From Deltaproteobacteria bacterium (GTDB lineage: Bacteria > Desulfobacterota > Syntrophia > Syntrophales > Smithellaceae): a stretch of DNA of 35,017 nt. Under the pieces are notes generated by a model. The model worked only from the letters and a program-made list of their open reading frames with translations. It searched no databases and had not been told where the DNA came from. This document shows, piece by piece, positions 22,070 to 30,416 of the stretch (positions within the stretch are counted from its first letter, which is position 1; each line of letters begins with the position of its first letter). The position numbers were made by a program, and so were the translations under genes. The stretch lies in assembly GCA_026388535.1 (NCBI GenBank), contig JAPLJP010000164.1, forward strand, positions 1 to 35,017. Reading direction: 5' to 3'.

Positions 22070-22358
22070 GAAACTCCAATTCCAAAAGCGAAGCGTATAA
22101 CCTAAAGGTCACGCGTTGGAATTGGTAAGTTGTAATGAGACTCAAACTTTAAAAAGCGAATAACCTAAATACCCTAAAGGGCACCGTGGGGTCACTATAG
22201 GCGTAGCGGAATTGGTAAGTTGTAATGAGACTCAAACTTTAAAAAGCGAAGCGAATAGAAGTTTGTTAGTCGAATTATCCAATAGCCAAAGGCTATTGGA
22301 TACAATCCAGCGAAGCGTAGGGTACAATACCCCGGAGCTTGTTTTGGGGTTCATACCC
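22070..22358 (-). repeat. Composite of dispersed hairpin repeats between rpoH and the glucan synthase
   Basis: A chain of related modules. A 43-bp sequence (GGAATTGGTAAGTTGTAATG...AAAAAGCGAA) occurs exactly twice, at 22118-22160 and 22208-22250. It is followed by GTTAGTCGAATTATCC, a perfect hairpin CCAATAGCC...GGCTATTGG and a nested hairpin GGGTA...ACCCC/GGGGT...TACCC (22320-22358) that starts 24 bases beyond the rpoH stop. The minus-strand order of modules is the same as in the element at 25398-25610. No coding potential is believed here; the 108-aa plus-strand ORF over it is mostly repeat and antisense to rpoH. Confidence 0.8.
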
Positions 22359-22381: not shown

Positions 22382-23227
22382 TTATTTATCGGGTTTAAAA
22401 TACGGCAACGCCAGTTGCATTTTTTTCAGGGCTTGTTTTTCAATCTGGCGTGCTCGTTCCCGCGAGATATTATACTTGCTCCCTATCTCCTGCAGTGTCT
22501 GGGGATCATCAGCCATTACACGGTTAAGAATAATATAACTTTCTCTTTCGTTAAGATTCGCCAGTGCTCCGGCGATATCGCGCCGGACAAGGCCTTTTTC
22601 TTCATCCTTGATTAAAGACACCTCCTGATCATCGCCTTCGTAGGCAAGAAAATCAATATGCGAATTACTGCTTTCGTCATTGATAATTTCATTCAGCGAA
22701 ACGTCACGCGAACCCATGCGCAAGTCCATTTCCGCTACCTCGGAATCTTTAACACCCAATGATTCAGCTATTTCACTGAATTCCGGATTCTTTCTGGAAA
22801 GCGTCTCCAGTTCTTTTTTCGTCTGTCCTAGTTTAAAAAATAATTTTCTCTGTGCCTGCGTAGTGCCTATTTTGACAATGCTCCAGGACTTGATAAGGTA
22901 ATTTTGAATGTAAGCCCGAATCCACCATACCGCGTAAGAAATCAATCTGTAGCCCTTGTATGGATCGAATTTTTTCACGGCGTGAATAAGGCCGATATTT
23001 CCTTCCTGGATTAAATCAGCCAACTTGAAGCCGTAGCTGCGGTATTCATGGGCAATCTTGACTACAAAACGCAAATTGGAAACTATAAGCTTTTCAGCCG
23101 CTTCCACGTCGCCATACTTTTTCAGACGCACGGCGAGCTTGAATTCCTCTTCCGCGGTTAAAAGAGAAAAGCGATTAATTTCAGCTATATATAAGTTAAG
23201 AGTGCCGGTTGCTACGGGCAGTTTCAA
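22382..23227 (-). CDS. rpoH: RNA polymerase sigma factor RpoH (sigma32 family)
   Basis: 281 aa, the normal RpoH length. It directs RNA polymerase to heat-shock promoters. Region 2 is clear (NLRFVVKIAHEYRSYGFKLADLIQEGNIGL through AVWWIRAYIQ, ~51-108). The RpoH-specific box QRKLFFKLGQTK is at ~126-137, which separates it from RpoD and RpoS types. Region 4 carries the helix-turn-helix LQEIGSKYNISRERARQIEKQALKKM near the C-terminus. The TTG start is supported by AGGAGG seven bases upstream; the next residues KLPVATGTLNLYIAEI suit the family. It is transcribed away from dacZ and clpB. clpB and htpX, common members of RpoH regulons, are within 7 kb, but no clear sigma32 promoter was found before them. 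Confidence 0.92.
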   Translation of the reverse strand: MKLPVATGTLNLYIAEINRFSLLTAEEEFKLAVRLKKYGDVEAAEKLIVSNLRFVVKIAHEYRSYGFKLADLIQEGNIGLIHAVKKFDPYKGYRLISYAVWWIRAYIQNYLIKSWSIVKIGTTQAQRKLFFKLGQTKKELETLSRKNPEFSEIAESLGVKDSEVAEMDLRMGSRDVSLNEIINDESSNSHIDFLAYEGDDQEVSLIKDEEKGLVRRDIAGALANLNERESYIILNRVMADDPQTLQEIGSKYNISRERARQIEKQALKKMQLALPYFKPDK

Positions 23228-23540: not shown

Positions 23541-23573
23541 GACATTCCGGATTAAATAGTGCAATTGAAGATC

Positions 23574-24260
23574 ATGCCCCGATTAGCCAGAATAACAGCC
23601 ATAGGTTACCCCCATCATGTCACTCAACGCGGCAATTATCGCCAGCGAGTGTTTAAAACAAATAACGACTATAAGCAGTACTTGTCTTGGCTGAATGAAT
23701 ATTCTGAGAAGAACTCTCTGGATATATGGGCCTATTGCCTCATGCCCAATCATGTTCATTTTATCTGTGTTCCGCAGAAGATTGATTCTCTGGCTCGCAC
23801 CTTCAACACGCTTCATATGCGCTATTCGCAGTACATGAATAAAAAGCAGGGAGCATGCGGTCATTTATGGCAGGGCAGGTTCTTCTCATGTATTCTTGAT
23901 GAGAAACATCTATTTGCCGCAGTTCGCTATGTTGAAAATAACCCGGTGAGGGCAGGTATAGTCAAGTCACAGGGGGAATATCATTGGTCAAGCGCTAAAG
24001 GACATATTAATAAGGGAGGCGATCTCATATTATGCAAGAAATCATTTTTGCATGATGATATCGAGGACTGGTTATCATATTTAAATTCAGGCGAGGACAA
24101 TAATATAGTTGAATGCATAAGAAAGAAGACGAGAGTTGGCCAGCCTTATGGTGAAGATGGATTTATGATTAAACTGGAGAAAAAGCTCGGCATGAAGTTA
24201 AGTAAAGGCAAGCCTGGCAGGCCGAGGAAAGTCAGAGTGCCAAAAGGCGGCGATAAATAG
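23574..24260 (+). CDS. Y1 (REP-associated type, HUH) single-strand transposase
   Basis: 228 aa from the ATG at 23574; the ORF track starts at a GTG 15 bases earlier. The shorter start gives MPRLARITAIGYPHHVTQRGN, the usual N-terminus of this family, and has GAAG just upstream. These enzymes cut and join single-stranded DNA through a tyrosine and a HUH metal site. The HUH motif is in MPNHVHFI and the likely catalytic Tyr is in AAVRYVENNPVRAG. The C-terminal ~40 residues are basic (KLSKGKPGRPRKVRVPK), suited to DNA binding. The gene looks intact. It is flanked by GGGACA-GCCC motifs and then by two ~125-bp hairpin elements, and other hairpin repeats lie nearby, which fits a TnpA-REP style system. 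Which repeat it acts on is not known. Confidence 0.9.
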   Translation: MPRLARITAIGYPHHVTQRGNYRQRVFKTNNDYKQYLSWLNEYSEKNSLDIWAYCLMPNHVHFICVPQKIDSLARTFNTLHMRYSQYMNKKQGACGHLWQGRFFSCILDEKHLFAAVRYVENNPVRAGIVKSQGEYHWSSAKGHINKGGDLILCKKSFLHDDIEDWLSYLNSGEDNNIVECIRKKTRVGQPYGEDGFMIKLEKKLGMKLSKGKPGRPRKVRVPKGGDK

Positions 24261-24478: not shown

Positions 24479-25300
24479 ATGAAAGAAAAAAATGGAAGGA
24501 GTGGAAATAAAATCAGCATTAGCTTTACTGCCTTACTTATTTTTATCGCAATGGCAGTTACAAGCATTAATGCCTGTGGATATTTGGGCATTTTGGGTGA
24601 ACTAAGCTGGAAAGAAGAGGTATTGCTGCATGACGGCAGTAAAATCATTGTTAAGCGATGGCAGAAATTAAAGACAGTATACACCTTCGAGCCAAGTGCA
24701 CTTATTAAGGAACAGTCCATCAGTTTTAAACTGCCGGGCACAAATAAAAAGATAGCTTGGAAAGATGGGCCTGCGAAGGATGTTATGGAAACTGTTAATT
24801 TTACTTTAATAGCCCTGCATATTAAGAATAACAAACCTTACCTTATCACCTCGCCATATGGTTGTTTGTCCTTCAATAAATGGGGCCGTCCCAATCCAAG
24901 TTATATTGTTTTCACGTATGAAGGCAAAGAATGGAACCGAATAGATATGACGAATTTGCCGCCAGAATTCAGAACTGTCAATCTTGTTCAAGGTACTATG
25001 AATCATAAAGTTAAAGTTGCCATTGGTCAGGGTTTGCTGACTGCAGAAAAGATAAAAGCACTCAACGAAGATGGCAATAAATCGGAGATATACAAAACCA
25101 TTGTTCGCACGCCGTTTAAGGGGAGTGGACAAGGTGGATGTCCGGAGATGGTTTATGATGGGCGAAAATGGATGGGGATTGGTTTTTTTAATAGGAAGGC
25201 TAACTATGAAGAATGTCTGGTTGTGTGTAAAGAAACCATGCACGACATTAAATATTGCCCCTGCAGCAGACTTTTCCCGAATAACAAGAAAGGAGAATAG
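24479..25300 (+). CDS. Secreted or lipoprotein-like protein of unknown function
   Basis: 273 aa; AGGGAGA precedes the ATG. I do not recognise the family. The N-terminus has a basic start (MKEKNGRSGNK) and a hydrophobic core, then SINAC with a Cys at position 33, which could be a loose lipobox; a plain signal peptide is the alternative. The mature part is beta-rich with a YxxSPYGCLSFNKWGRPNPSY-like region. The C-terminal ~60 residues hold several cysteines (GGCPEM, ECLVVC, YCPC) that could form disulfides. It sits between inverted copies of the GGGACAGCGCCC motif (24256 and 25313) and right after hairpin element B, so it may be an accessory or cargo gene. A minus-strand ORF over it (202 aa) is taken as a shadow. 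Confidence 0.75.
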   Translation: MKEKNGRSGNKISISFTALLIFIAMAVTSINACGYLGILGELSWKEEVLLHDGSKIIVKRWQKLKTVYTFEPSALIKEQSISFKLPGTNKKIAWKDGPAKDVMETVNFTLIALHIKNNKPYLITSPYGCLSFNKWGRPNPSYIVFTYEGKEWNRIDMTNLPPEFRTVNLVQGTMNHKVKVAIGQGLLTAEKIKALNEDGNKSEIYKTIVRTPFKGSGQGGCPEMVYDGRKWMGIGFFNRKANYEECLVVCKETMHDIKYCPCSRLFPNNKKGE

Positions 25301-25397: not shown

Positions 25398-25610
25398 ACT
25401 GAATATAGAATCACGGGTAAGACCCCGAAATGAGCGTCGGGGTTCTTACCCTCCGCTGTGCGGGATAATTTCCAATAGCATTTAGCTATTGGATAATTCG
25501 ACTAACCAACTTTAATTCGCTTTGCTTTTAAAGTTTGAGTCTTATTACGACTAACCAATTCCAATGTGTTTCACTTTTGGAATTGGAGTCTCATTAATTC
25601 TATATTCAGT
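25398..25610. repeat. 213-bp element with perfect 14-bp terminal inverted repeats
   Basis: ACTGAATATAGAAT (25398-25411) is the exact reverse complement of ATTCTATATTCAGT (25597-25610). Inside, in order: nested hairpin GGGTAAGACCCCG...GGGTTCTTACCC (25415-25451), hairpin TCCAATAGC...GCTATTGGA, then two CGACTAACCAA units with hairpins AACTTTAA...TTAAAGTT and CCAATTCCAA...TTGGAATTGG, each ending in GAGTCTyATTA. It is non-coding. The module order equals that of 22070-22358 read on the minus strand. Confidence 0.85.
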
Positions 25611-25731: not shown

Positions 25732-25760
25732 TTGACACAAGACATATTTATGCTTATTCT
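25732..25760 (+). promoter_or_regulatory. Sigma70 promoter of the diadenylate cyclase gene
   Basis: TTGACA (25732-25737), a 17-base spacer and TATTCT (25755-25760), 37 bases before the ATG. Good agreement with the vegetative consensus, so the gene is probably expressed on its own. Confidence 0.7.
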
Positions 25761-25797: not shown

Positions 25798-26670
25798 ATG
25801 AGATCTATAAACAAAACCATGATTGAACATGCCATTAAAATTGCGCATGAAATTAAAGCAGACGCTTTGCTTGTCAGTGTGGATGTAATCAACGATATGA
25901 GCCTGCTGATGGATGAACTAAAAAAAGATATCAGCTTCATTATCGTTTCTCGCGAGAATGAATCAATATCGGACGAAGTGAAGAAAAACGCCCGAATATT
26001 ATACATTCCCAATGTAAATCTAACCCGCGTGGGAAAAATTAAAATTGCCATTGCAAAAGGGATAGTTTTAGGCTTTTTTAAAAGAGGCGATAAAGTTGTC
26101 TGTTTAAGCGGTGTGCCCAGATTTGGTTACACAGACAGCATTTTTGTAATTGATGTGGGCAAAGAATTTGAGATTTTAACATCTGATTTTATCAATGATG
26201 TAATTGAAAATGTCCGGCCGGAAGTTTTTAACGCCGCATTAAATATAGCCTGCGAACTGGCCGCTCAGGGAAGAGAAAACAAAAAAGTGGGAACGATCTT
26301 TGTTCTGGGAGACGATGAGAAAGTTATGCAGCTTTCCCAGCAAATGATTATCAACCCGTTTATGGGATATTCGGAAGAACAGCTTAACATTTTGAATCCC
26401 GAACTGGAAGAAACCATCAAGGAATTATCGGCGATTGACGGCGCCTTTATTATCAAAGAAAATGGTGTACTTGTGACTGCCGGAAGACATCTTAACGCCG
26501 CGCTGGACAGCCGTGATTTTCCCGCAGGCCTTGGCAGCAGACACATCGCCGCTGCCGGTATTACCAGCGTAACAAAAGCAGTGGCTATAGTCATTTCCGA
26601 ATCTTCGGGAAACGTAACTGTTTTTAAGAACGGTAAGCTGTTTGTGACTATTGAAAAACCGGTAGAATAG
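25798..26670 (+). CDS. Diadenylate cyclase, DacZ-like (DisA_N domain with pyruvate-kinase-C-like N-terminus)
   Basis: 290 aa; AAGGTG lies ahead of the ATG. The C-terminal ~110 residues match the DisA_N/DAC catalytic domain that joins two ATP into cyclic di-AMP: IDGAFIIKENGVLVTAGRHL with the DGA motif at D214, and LGSRHIAAAGIT with R248-H249 (the RHR motif reads RHI here). The N-terminal half resembles the C-terminal domain of pyruvate kinase (GxxLGFFKRGDKVVCLSGVPRFGYTDSIFVIDV). That pairing is like archaeal DacZ/CdaZ and unlike the membrane CdaA or DNA-scanning DisA. No membrane segment is seen, so it should be cytosolic. It has its own promoter, and a repeat begins at the base after its stop. 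The catalytic assignment is strong; the physiological role (osmotic, potassium or envelope control) is inference. Confidence 0.85.
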   Translation: MRSINKTMIEHAIKIAHEIKADALLVSVDVINDMSLLMDELKKDISFIIVSRENESISDEVKKNARILYIPNVNLTRVGKIKIAIAKGIVLGFFKRGDKVVCLSGVPRFGYTDSIFVIDVGKEFEILTSDFINDVIENVRPEVFNAALNIACELAAQGRENKKVGTIFVLGDDEKVMQLSQQMIINPFMGYSEEQLNILNPELEETIKELSAIDGAFIIKENGVLVTAGRHLNAALDSRDFPAGLGSRHIAAAGITSVTKAVAIVISESSGNVTVFKNGKLFVTIEKPVE

Positions 26671-26851
26671 TGACACTCGTTAAGAGTGAATCCCGACATG
26701 CCGGGATGAAGCTCGAAACGTAAGTGGAACTATCCTAGGAACGAAGTGACGTAGGGTAGTGAGTCCCAAGTTTTAGAAGCGTAGCGTATGGGGATAGTGA
26801 CATCAGCCAAATTATCCAATCCCAATGAGTCGGGATTGGAAATTATCCCGC
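26671..26851. repeat. Composite of dispersed hairpin repeats between dacZ-like gene and clpB
   Basis: Starts directly after the TAG stop with TGACACTCG and contains successive hairpins: CACTC...GAGTG, ATCCCG...CGGGAT and CCAATCCC...GGGATTGG. Shared blocks are GTAAGTGGAACTATCC, ATTATCC and AATTATCCCGC. No promoter or ORF was identified, though clpB must be transcribed through or from this stretch. Confidence 0.75.
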
Positions 26852-26876
26852 AAAGCAGGGGTAGAGGAAATGCAAT

Positions 26877-29489
26877 ATGCGTTTTGACAAATTTACTTTA
26901 AAAGTCCAGGAAGCGATCCAGGAGGCGCAGACACTGGCCGGTTCATACGGTCATCAAGAGATTGAGCCGGAACATCTGCTTGTTTCTTTTTTGCGGCAGG
27001 AAGAAGGCATTGTTGGAGCTGTTTTGGAAAAGCTGGGTGCCAAGCCAAATCAGATTGAGAAGGCGCTTATAAGTTTTCTGGAAAGACAGCCTCGCATCGA
27101 GGGTTCAGCCACAGGTCAAATATATCTTTCTGCCCGTTTGAATAAAATTTTCGATAAAGCCCTTACCGAAGCAGCCCGTCTCAAAGACGAATATGTAAGC
27201 GCGGAACATGTCTTGATTGCGGTGACTGAGGAAAAAACCGGTGAAGCCGCGAAAATTTTGCGGCAAGCGGGGGTAACCAAAGACAATATCTTTAAGGTGT
27301 TGGTGGAAATCAGGGGCAATCAAAGAGTTACCGACCCTAACCCGGAGGGGAAATATCAAGCTCTGCAGCGTTACGCCAGAGACTTCAATGAACTGGCCCG
27401 TAAGGGTTCTTTTGATCCGGTAATCGGCCGCGATGAAGAAATACGGCGCATCATGCAGGTGCTTTCTCGCCGTACAAAAAATAATCCGGTCTTAATCGGA
27501 GAACCGGGTGTCGGGAAAACAGCGATTGTTGAAGGATTAGCGCAACGCATTGTCAATGGCGATGTGCCGGAAAACCTGAAAAATAAACGCGTCATTGGTC
27601 TGGACATTGGTTCTCTGGTGGCCGGCGCGAAATATCGCGGCGAATTTGAGGAACGTCTGAAAGCGGTTTTGAAGGAAGTGATCAGCGCTCAAGGTGAGAT
27701 AATTCTCTTTATCGATGAAATACATACAGTTGTCGGAGCGGGTGCGGCGGAAGGTTCGATGGACGCTTCTAACATGCTCAAACCTGCTCTGGCCAGGGGG
27801 GAGTTGCGTTGTGTGGGCGCGACAACGCTTAACGAATATCGAAAATACATAGAAAAAGATGCGGCTCTGGAGCGTCGTTTTCAACCGGTTTTGGTCAAGG
27901 AGCCGACGGTGGAGGATACAATCGCCATCCTACGCGGACTGAAAGAACGTTATGAAGTTCATCACAGGGTGCGGATAAAAGATTCGGCCATAGTAGCCGC
28001 CGCTACGCTTTCGCACCGTTACATAACCGATCGCTTTCTGCCGGATAAGGCTGTGGACCTGATTGACGAGGCGGCATCCCGTTTAAAAATAGAGTTGGAC
28101 AGTATGCCTTCGGAAATTGACGCTATTGATCGTAAAATCATACAACTGGAAATAGAACGTCAGTCTTTGAAAAAGGAAACTGATAAAACCGCCAAGGAAC
28201 GGCGCGACAAGATTGAAAAGGAACTCGCCGATCTTAAATCCAGCATGGCTCAGATGAAAATACACTGGTCAAGTGAAAAGGATATAATCAATAAAATCCA
28301 AAATACTAAAGGCAAGATAGAGGCTTTAAAAACAGAAGAGGCCAATGCCCAGCGCGAAGGCAATCTTGCGAAGGTCGCGGAGATTCGCTACGGAAAGCTT
28401 GTAGCTTTGGACAAAAATTTACAGGAGGATCAGACAAAACTTCTGGAGATTCAAAAAAACAAACAAATGCTCAAAGAAGAGGTGGATGCGGAAGACGTGG
28501 CCGAAGTTGTCTCCAATTGGACGGGCATACCGCTATCAAGGATGATGGAAAGCGACGTGCAGAAACTCATTCATATGGAAGAACGGCTCAAAATGCGTGT
28601 CATCGGTCAGGATGAAGGCATTGGGGCGGTCTCCGCGGCGTTGCGCCGAGCGCGGTCCGGATTGCAGGATCCTAACCGTCCCATCGGATCGTTCATTTTT
28701 CTGGGACCCACAGGTGTTGGCAAAACCGAACTCGCACGCGCTTTGGCGGAATTCATGTTTGATAATGAACAGGCGATGATTCGCGTTGACATGTCGGAAT
28801 ATATGGAAAAACACGCGGTGGCTCGTCTGATCGGCGCTCCACCCGGTTATGTAGGCTATGACGAAGGAGGATATCTGACTGAAGCGGTGCGGCGTAAGCC
28901 CTACAGCGTATTACTTTTCGATGAAATTGAAAAAGCTCATCCCGATGTTTTTAATATTTTATTGCAGATACTCGATGACGGAAGGTTGACTGACGGGCAT
29001 GGCCGAACCGTTGATTTCAAAAACACAATAGTGATTATGACTTCCAACGTTGGCAGTCAATGGATACAGGATCCGACTTTAGATGATAAAGAAAAACAAA
29101 GCCGGACACTGGAGGCATTGCGTGCGACGTTTAAACCGGAATTCTTAAACCGCATAGACGATACGATTATGTTTTCCGCACTGAAACTGGAGGATATCTA
29201 TAAGATTGTTGATATTCAGATGAGTCTGATTGACAAGCGGCTCAAAGAGCGAAAACTGAGCATCGAATTGACAGAAAAGGCGAAAAACTATATAGCCGAA
29301 CAGGGCTACAGCCCTGTTTACGGTGCCCGTCCGCTTAAACGTTCATTGCAGAAACTTATTCTGGATCCGCTGGCGATGGAAATTCTGACCGGCAAATTTG
29401 CCGAGGGAGATCGAATCATCGCGGGTTTATCCAAGAAAGGTGAAATAACTTTAATGAGGCTCGCTAAAGACGAACGCAGTGAAGTCTGA
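26877..29489 (+). CDS. clpB: ATP-dependent disaggregase ClpB (Hsp100)
   Basis: 870 aa, normal for ClpB. It works with DnaK to pull polypeptides out of aggregates by threading them through a hexamer. Two Clp-N repeats occupy ~1-150 ([21 protein letters not shown]). AAA+ module 1 has Walker A GEPGVGKT (208-215) and Walker B LFIDEIHT. The coiled-coil middle domain typical of ClpB, and absent in ClpA, lies at ~410-530. AAA+ module 2 has GPTGVGKT (610-617) and [14 protein letters not shown], with the pore segment [18 protein letters not shown] lies a short way ahead of the ATG; another ATG at 26870 is out of frame and stops at once. The last codons and the TGA stop lie in a dispersed repeat (29471 on). 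Confidence 0.97.
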
Positions 29490-29567: not shown

Positions 29568-30416
29568 ATGGGTAACACGATAAAAACCGCTCTTTTACTG
29601 GGAGCGTTGACCGGATTATTGATGTTTATCGGCGGCCTTGCTGGTGGAAGGGGAGGCGTTTATATCGCTTTCATTTTCGCTGTAATTTTAAATTTCGGCA
29701 GTTACTGGTTTTCCGATAAAATTGTTCTGCGAATGTATAAGGCGCAGGAAGTTTCAGAAAGCTCGGCGCCTGATCTTTACAGTCTTGTTCGTAACCTGGC
29801 GTTAAAAGCCAATTTGCCTATGCCGCGGGTTTTTATTATTCCCGAAGAAACAGCCAATGCTTTTGCGACCGGTCGTAACGAGAAACATGCGGTTGTCGCC
29901 GTGACGGAAGGAATAATGCGGATTTTGAATAAAGAAGAACTCGAAGGTGTAATCTCCCATGAGCTCACACATATTAAGAACAGAGATATGCTTATCAGCT
30001 CTATTGCCGCAACTCTTGCCGGCGCCATTGTATGGCTGGCTCATATGGCTCAATTCGCGGCTATTTTCGGCGGCGGCCGCAGTGATGATGATGATCACGG
30101 CGGAATAATCGGTTTGATAGCGATGGCCATTTTTGCTCCTCTGGCCGCAGCCGTTATTCAAATGGCCATCTCCCGTTCCCGCGAATATCTGGCTGATGCC
30201 GGTGGCGCTAATATCACCAAAAACCCTTACGGATTGGCTTCCGCTTTGGAAAAACTTTCCAGAGCTTCGCAGATTATTCCGATGAATGCCAATCCCTCCA
30301 CGGCGCATTTGTTTATTGTTAATCCTCTGACTGGAAAATCACTCATGAACCTCTTCAGCACTCATCCGCCGCTGGAGGAAAGAATCGCCCGCTTAAGAAG
30401 CATGAAACCATATTAA
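29568..30416 (+). CDS. htpX: HtpX-type membrane zinc metalloprotease (M48)
   Basis: 282 aa; GGAGG seven bases upstream of the ATG. HtpX degrades misfolded or damaged inner-membrane proteins together with FtsH. Two hydrophobic segments at the N-terminus ([39 protein letters not shown]) are followed by the catalytic HELTH zinc motif at 131-135 in [14 protein letters not shown]. Two more membrane segments come next ([17 protein letters not shown] and [21 protein letters not shown]). The third ligand Glu is probably in [14 protein letters not shown] His/Asp-rich loop (SDDDDHGG) lies between the helices. It follows clpB by 78 bp, a protein-quality-control neighbourhood. Confidence 0.94.

Follow-up and report, generated by a model that had tools for sequence, protein, structure and literature searches.

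A predicted cytosolic DacZ-type diadenylate cyclase encoded between rpoH and clpB in the Syntrophia

What a diadenylate cyclase of archaeal layout might do beside the heat-shock genes rpoH and clpB is the question raised by a 35,017-nt stretch of DNA (the window) from contig JAPLJP010000164.1 of a Smithellaceae assembly (GCA_026388535.1). The open reading frame (ORF) of interest comprises 290 codons from an ATG start. Relatives of its product are encoded at 68 loci, 40 of which span all 290 residues at 70 to 91% identity, so that a chance ORF can be dismissed. A preliminary description based on the letters of the sequence had placed a DisA_N (DAC) catalytic domain at the C terminus, with DGA at residue 214 and RHI at 248, behind a pyruvate-kinase-C-like domain. 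Both motifs lie exactly at these positions, and the Pfam search of the 290-aa protein that it had proposed returned two domains above their cut-offs, namely, DAC (PF02457; 85.1 bits versus 27) and DacZ_P (PF21755; 63.6 bits versus 27.4). The gene and its parts are as follows.

25798 to 26670, forward strand: dacZ-type diadenylate cyclase gene, 290 aa (ORF call, profile matches, and structure model).
25813 to 26181, forward strand: DacZ_P N-terminal domain, residues 6 to 128, with the pyruvate kinase C-terminal fold (Pfam PF21755, model, and PDB fold search).
26260 to 26640, forward strand: DAC catalytic domain, residues 155 to 281 (Pfam PF02457; best fold matches, CdaA and DisA structures).
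26437 to 26445, forward strand: DGA motif, residues 214 to 216 (DGA kept in 66 of 69 relatives).
26539 to 26547, forward strand: RHI, residues 248 to 250, of the RHxAA motif (RHIAA at 248; R and H invariant in the family).

Structure prediction gave the same picture of both domains. The full-length AlphaFold2 model, built on 55 sequences (pLDDT, 79.7; pTM, 0.80), is a monomer with low confidence at residues 126 to 132 and 231 to 240; its top PDB fold matches were the DAC domains of CdaA, followed lower down by DisA. When modeled on their own, the first 140 residues (pLDDT, 78.3; pTM, 0.76) best matched pyruvate kinase C-terminal domains (TM scores of 0.66 to 0.68 by query length; E values from 2.8e-6), and the layout claimed in the preliminary description is therefore right. 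Membership in PK_C itself (PF02887) was rejected at 13.9 bits, under the cut-off of 28, and was replaced by DacZ_P together with the fold match; the domain thus already has a name in Pfam, which labels it a probable sensor domain. No transmembrane segment was found in the 290-aa protein (best 19-residue Kyte-Doolittle mean, 1.53), whose model is alpha/beta, in agreement with the cytosolic enzyme first proposed. CdaA identity was discarded, with no CdaA_N match and 42 bits to TIGR00159 (cut-off, 188.8), as was DisA identity, since DisA consists of an N-terminal DAC, a linker, and HhH, whereas DAC is C-terminal here (PRK13482, 26.7 bits versus 201). The haloarchaeal DacZ equivalog NF041371 was not reached either (131.6 bits versus a curated cut-off of 430). 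DAC and DacZ_P scores over their cut-offs and the pyruvate-kinase-C fold consequently identify a cyclase of the DacZ type, as distinct from CdaA and DisA.

Known cyclases share some of these traits. Haloferax volcanii DacZ (PMC6741144) likewise has a C-terminal DAC with DGA, an N terminus of pyruvate-kinase-C fold, and no membrane anchor, but it adjoins mscS rather than rpoH and clpB and is the sole, essential cyclase of its host, whereas the window enzyme is one of two. Methanocaldococcus jannaschii DacY/CdaZ also carries a PK_C-type domain N-terminal of DAC (PMC6741144); in the window protein, PK_C falls under the cut-off and DacZ_P matches instead. CdaA and CdaA-YbbR (DacC class) have the DAC domain and reaction in common with it, but their membrane-anchored N terminus and YbbR contrast with the PK_C-like domain here. 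Other DacZ_P proteins of the Desulfobacterota have both domains (35 to 53% identity; mostly about 290 to 320 aa), although their gene neighbors vary from family to family.

Within the class, 143 of 155 genomes encode a DAC domain and 102 encode DacZ_P; in a phylum sample, 55 of 395 genomes have DacZ_P over the cut-off. Orthologues across Syntrophia loci are 54 to 91% identical to the window protein, and the closest loci are from Smithella and Syntrophaceae, in keeping with the likely syntrophic host suggested at the outset. Remoter relatives include one record each from Phycisphaerales, Myxococcales, and Woesearchaeota; a single archaeal relative (L068; 33% identity) was among those fetched. 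Bacterial relatives of archaeal DacZ with the PK_C-like fold have already been noted (PMC6741144). The cyclase is thus of a known kind that is common in its class, and its description as little explored was an overstatement.

An alignment of 55 proteins, down to 31% identity, showed D214, G215, R248, and H249 to be invariant; three relatives have DGS instead of DGA. At the third position of the RHR motif, Syntrophia proteins have I; across the phylum, I, V, L, M, R, A, H, or N occurs. Replacement of RHR by AAA abolishes the activity of the Mycobacterium tuberculosis enzyme (PMC3328451); no published result on the third residue alone was found. The same alignment revealed near-invariant runs at residues 71 to 92 and 97 to 129, inside the N-terminal domain.

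A search of the window's own genome for the rest of the pathway, as the preliminary description had advised, recovered a second cyclase and a c-di-AMP system that it had not mentioned. The second DAC protein, on contig C188, is a 487-aa CdaA_N-DAC-YbbR protein. A 7TMR-HD PgpH-type protein and a DHH-DHHA1 protein are candidate phosphodiesterases, and two TrkA_C/RCK_C proteins correspond to a potassium channel and to a KtrA-like protein adjoining a TrkH-type transporter. A c-di-AMP riboswitch (84.5 bits; G000:C108:36001-36138, L109:1502-1639) lies about 155 bp upstream of kdpA, and genome G042 repeats this arrangement (L218). It resembles the Bacillus thuringiensis ydaO/kdp riboswitch in the position of RF00379 ahead of kdp, except that the host is Smithella-like (PMC6488665); a 2019 survey had found riboswitch-controlled kdp in Bacillales only (PMC6488665). 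The kdpA gene of the own genome (L109:1761-3499) is broken into two frames of 433 and 160 aa, by either assembly error or decay, whereas that of G042 is intact.

Across the class, c-di-AMP riboswitches were found in 34 of 155 genomes. Among 19 whose following gene was read, this gene was kup in 12 cases (4 checked with Pfam, the others called by sequence reading), kdpA in 2, a KimA-like permease in 2, trkH in 1, and unclear in 2. Two genomes listed as 100% complete (G020 and G021) retain the rpoH-dacZ-clpB order and have the DacZ_P protein as their single DAC match; their riboswitches (92.6 and 95.1 bits) are located 56 bp upstream of kup (Pfam K_trans). The presence of c-di-AMP riboswitches in these DacZ_P-only genomes is the best indirect sign here that DacZ_P makes c-di-AMP, and it indicates that such a protein can serve as the only cyclase. 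In G010 (98% complete), a riboswitch (L231; G010:C51:22436-22576) precedes a KimA-like permease, and no DAC match was found at an E value of 0.001.

The neighborhood of dacZ includes the rpoH and clpB genes named initially, both supported by profile matches.

22382 to 23227, reverse strand: rpoH, heat-shock sigma factor, divergent from dacZ (TIGR02392, 333.9 bits versus a cut-off of 323.1).
23559 to 24260, forward strand: REP-associated tyrosine transposase, between rpoH and dacZ (Y1_Tnp, 55.6 bits; NF047646, 75.1 bits versus a cut-off of 80).
25732 to 25760, forward strand: promoter-like sequence TTGACA-N17-TATTCT, 66 bp upstream of the ATG (pattern conserved across loci).
26671 to 26876, forward strand: dacZ-clpB gap of 206 bp with repeat elements (5 to 20 bp in most relatives).
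26877 to 29489, forward strand: clpB disaggregase, 3′ of dacZ on the same strand (TIGR03346, 1353 bits).
29568 to 30416, forward strand: htpX membrane protease (NF002826, 389.5 bits).

In Syntrophia loci whose flanks were long enough to judge, rpoH is transcribed away from dacZ in 61 of 64 cases, and clpB directly follows dacZ in 61 of 62; since the window itself and near relatives are among those counted, the cases are not independent events. The dacZ-clpB gap has a median of 13 bp, is usually 5 to 20 bp, and does not exceed 30 bp in 51 of 61 loci. The syntenic block also includes ispE, prs, rplY, and pth. Outside the class, clpB was beside dacZ in none of 29 loci read. There, family f34 has a divergent rpoH (339 bits) followed by an RssA-like patatin gene and dacZ, with dnaJ close by, and in families f78 and f43 a gene for an RpoS-like sigma factor lies within a few genes upstream (302 to 337 bits, under the RpoS cut-offs; one copy is split in two frames). 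In families such as f28, dacZ adjoins pth-rplY-prs-ispE without clpB. Loci L162 and L174 show apt (adenine phosphoribosyltransferase) and an RpoS-like sigma gene ahead of dacZ. The new element of this locus is the fixed place of dacZ between two heat-shock genes.

Of 65 loci, 61 have the pattern TTGACA-N16-18-TAnnnT within 100 bp of the dacZ start, mostly 54 to 67 bp upstream, against an expectation of 0.1 from mononucleotide shuffles. Its −10 part is at odds with the delta-proteobacterial sigma-32 consensus CTTGAAA-N11/16-CCCCAT (PMC545781), and the conserved promoter looks sigma-70-like rather than sigma-32. Matches to the sigma-32 consensus for dacZ or clpB only slightly exceeded those in shuffles, and CIRCE was absent from the 400 bp searched upstream. 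The loci thus show close linkage of dacZ with heat-shock genes rather than heat-shock control. Since radA of the own genome has a similar TTGACA element, this element alone is not heat-shock-specific. Heat-shock genes of this genome offered no promoter yardstick, since groEL and hrcA are situated at the ends of contigs and grpE (L170:959-1564) has an in-frame TAG that may be an assembly error.

In the window, insertions have widened both junctions of dacZ, leaving its promoter element intact. The rpoH-dacZ interval of 2570 bp contains the transposase, a 273-aa ORF (positions 24479 to 25300) without a Pfam or NCBIfam match, and repeats. Inverted and direct repeats, with 86-nt arms that are 84% complementary, lie on either side of the REP-type transposase and again in the dacZ-clpB gap (22111 to 22324, 25447 to 25591, and 26835 to 26861); similar stretches precede dacZ in L011, L013, and L014. 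In this strain, clpB may be partly uncoupled from dacZ.

We assign a probability of about 0.86 to the reading of the window protein as a cytosolic DacZ-type diadenylate cyclase that feeds a c-di-AMP/potassium network, with a regulatory or oligomeric N-terminal domain. The enzyme very probably makes c-di-AMP, a signal that limits potassium uptake. The DAC domain would dimerize in the face-to-face manner of CdaA and DisA and join two ATP molecules into c-di-AMP, adding to the pool from the membrane CdaA-YbbR enzyme; riboswitches and RCK_C proteins would read the signal and restrain potassium import, and the PgpH and DHH-DHHA1 enzymes would remove it. That the DAC is instead degenerate, a sensor binding nucleotides or c-di-AMP without synthesis while CdaA-YbbR supplies the signal, would fit RHI in place of RHR and the canonical second cyclase of the genome. 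We consider this very improbable: DGA and RH are kept family-wide, the third residue in the own CdaA-type enzyme is T, likewise not R, and G020 and G021 carry riboswitches with DacZ_P as their single DAC match. For the pyruvate-kinase-C-like domain, a role in regulation or oligomerization is probable. In pyruvate kinase, subunits meet at the C domain as well, as would suit a pure oligomerization scaffold devoid of sensing; the near-invariant runs, which suggest a kept surface or pocket, and the Pfam label argue for more than that, and we hold the scaffold to be possible, if somewhat doubtful.

A further reading, an addition to that of a cyclase feeding the potassium network, gives dacZ an active role in the response to protein stress. 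Sharing a transcript with clpB and htpX, the gene would raise c-di-AMP and lower potassium import at unfolding or growth restart. The divergent rpoH, the adjacent clpB, and the short median gap in Syntrophia favor this idea, as do rpoH and dnaJ near dacZ in f34 and the RpoS-like gene in f78 and f43. We nevertheless regard it as rather unlikely, given the sigma-70-like element, the lack of CIRCE, the near-shuffle level of sigma-32 matches, the widened junctions in the window, and the absence of clpB beside dacZ in the 29 loci read outside the class. Moreover, shared ancestry could preserve the order because ispE, prs, rplY, and pth belong to the same block. More speculative, and unlikely on present grounds, is the general proposal that DacZ of the Desulfobacterota couples RpoH/RpoS and ClpB to potassium homeostasis, c-di-AMP made at this locus lowering import under folding stress; if true, the route would run through the riboswitches and RCK_C proteins.

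Research on c-di-AMP has dealt mostly with Gram-positive bacteria, whereas the whole pathway is present here in an anaerobic, partly syntrophic Gram-negative class that combines two unlike cyclases with riboswitches ahead of potassium importer genes. The constant arrangement of rpoH, dacZ, and clpB makes a role of c-di-AMP in the protein-stress response testable.
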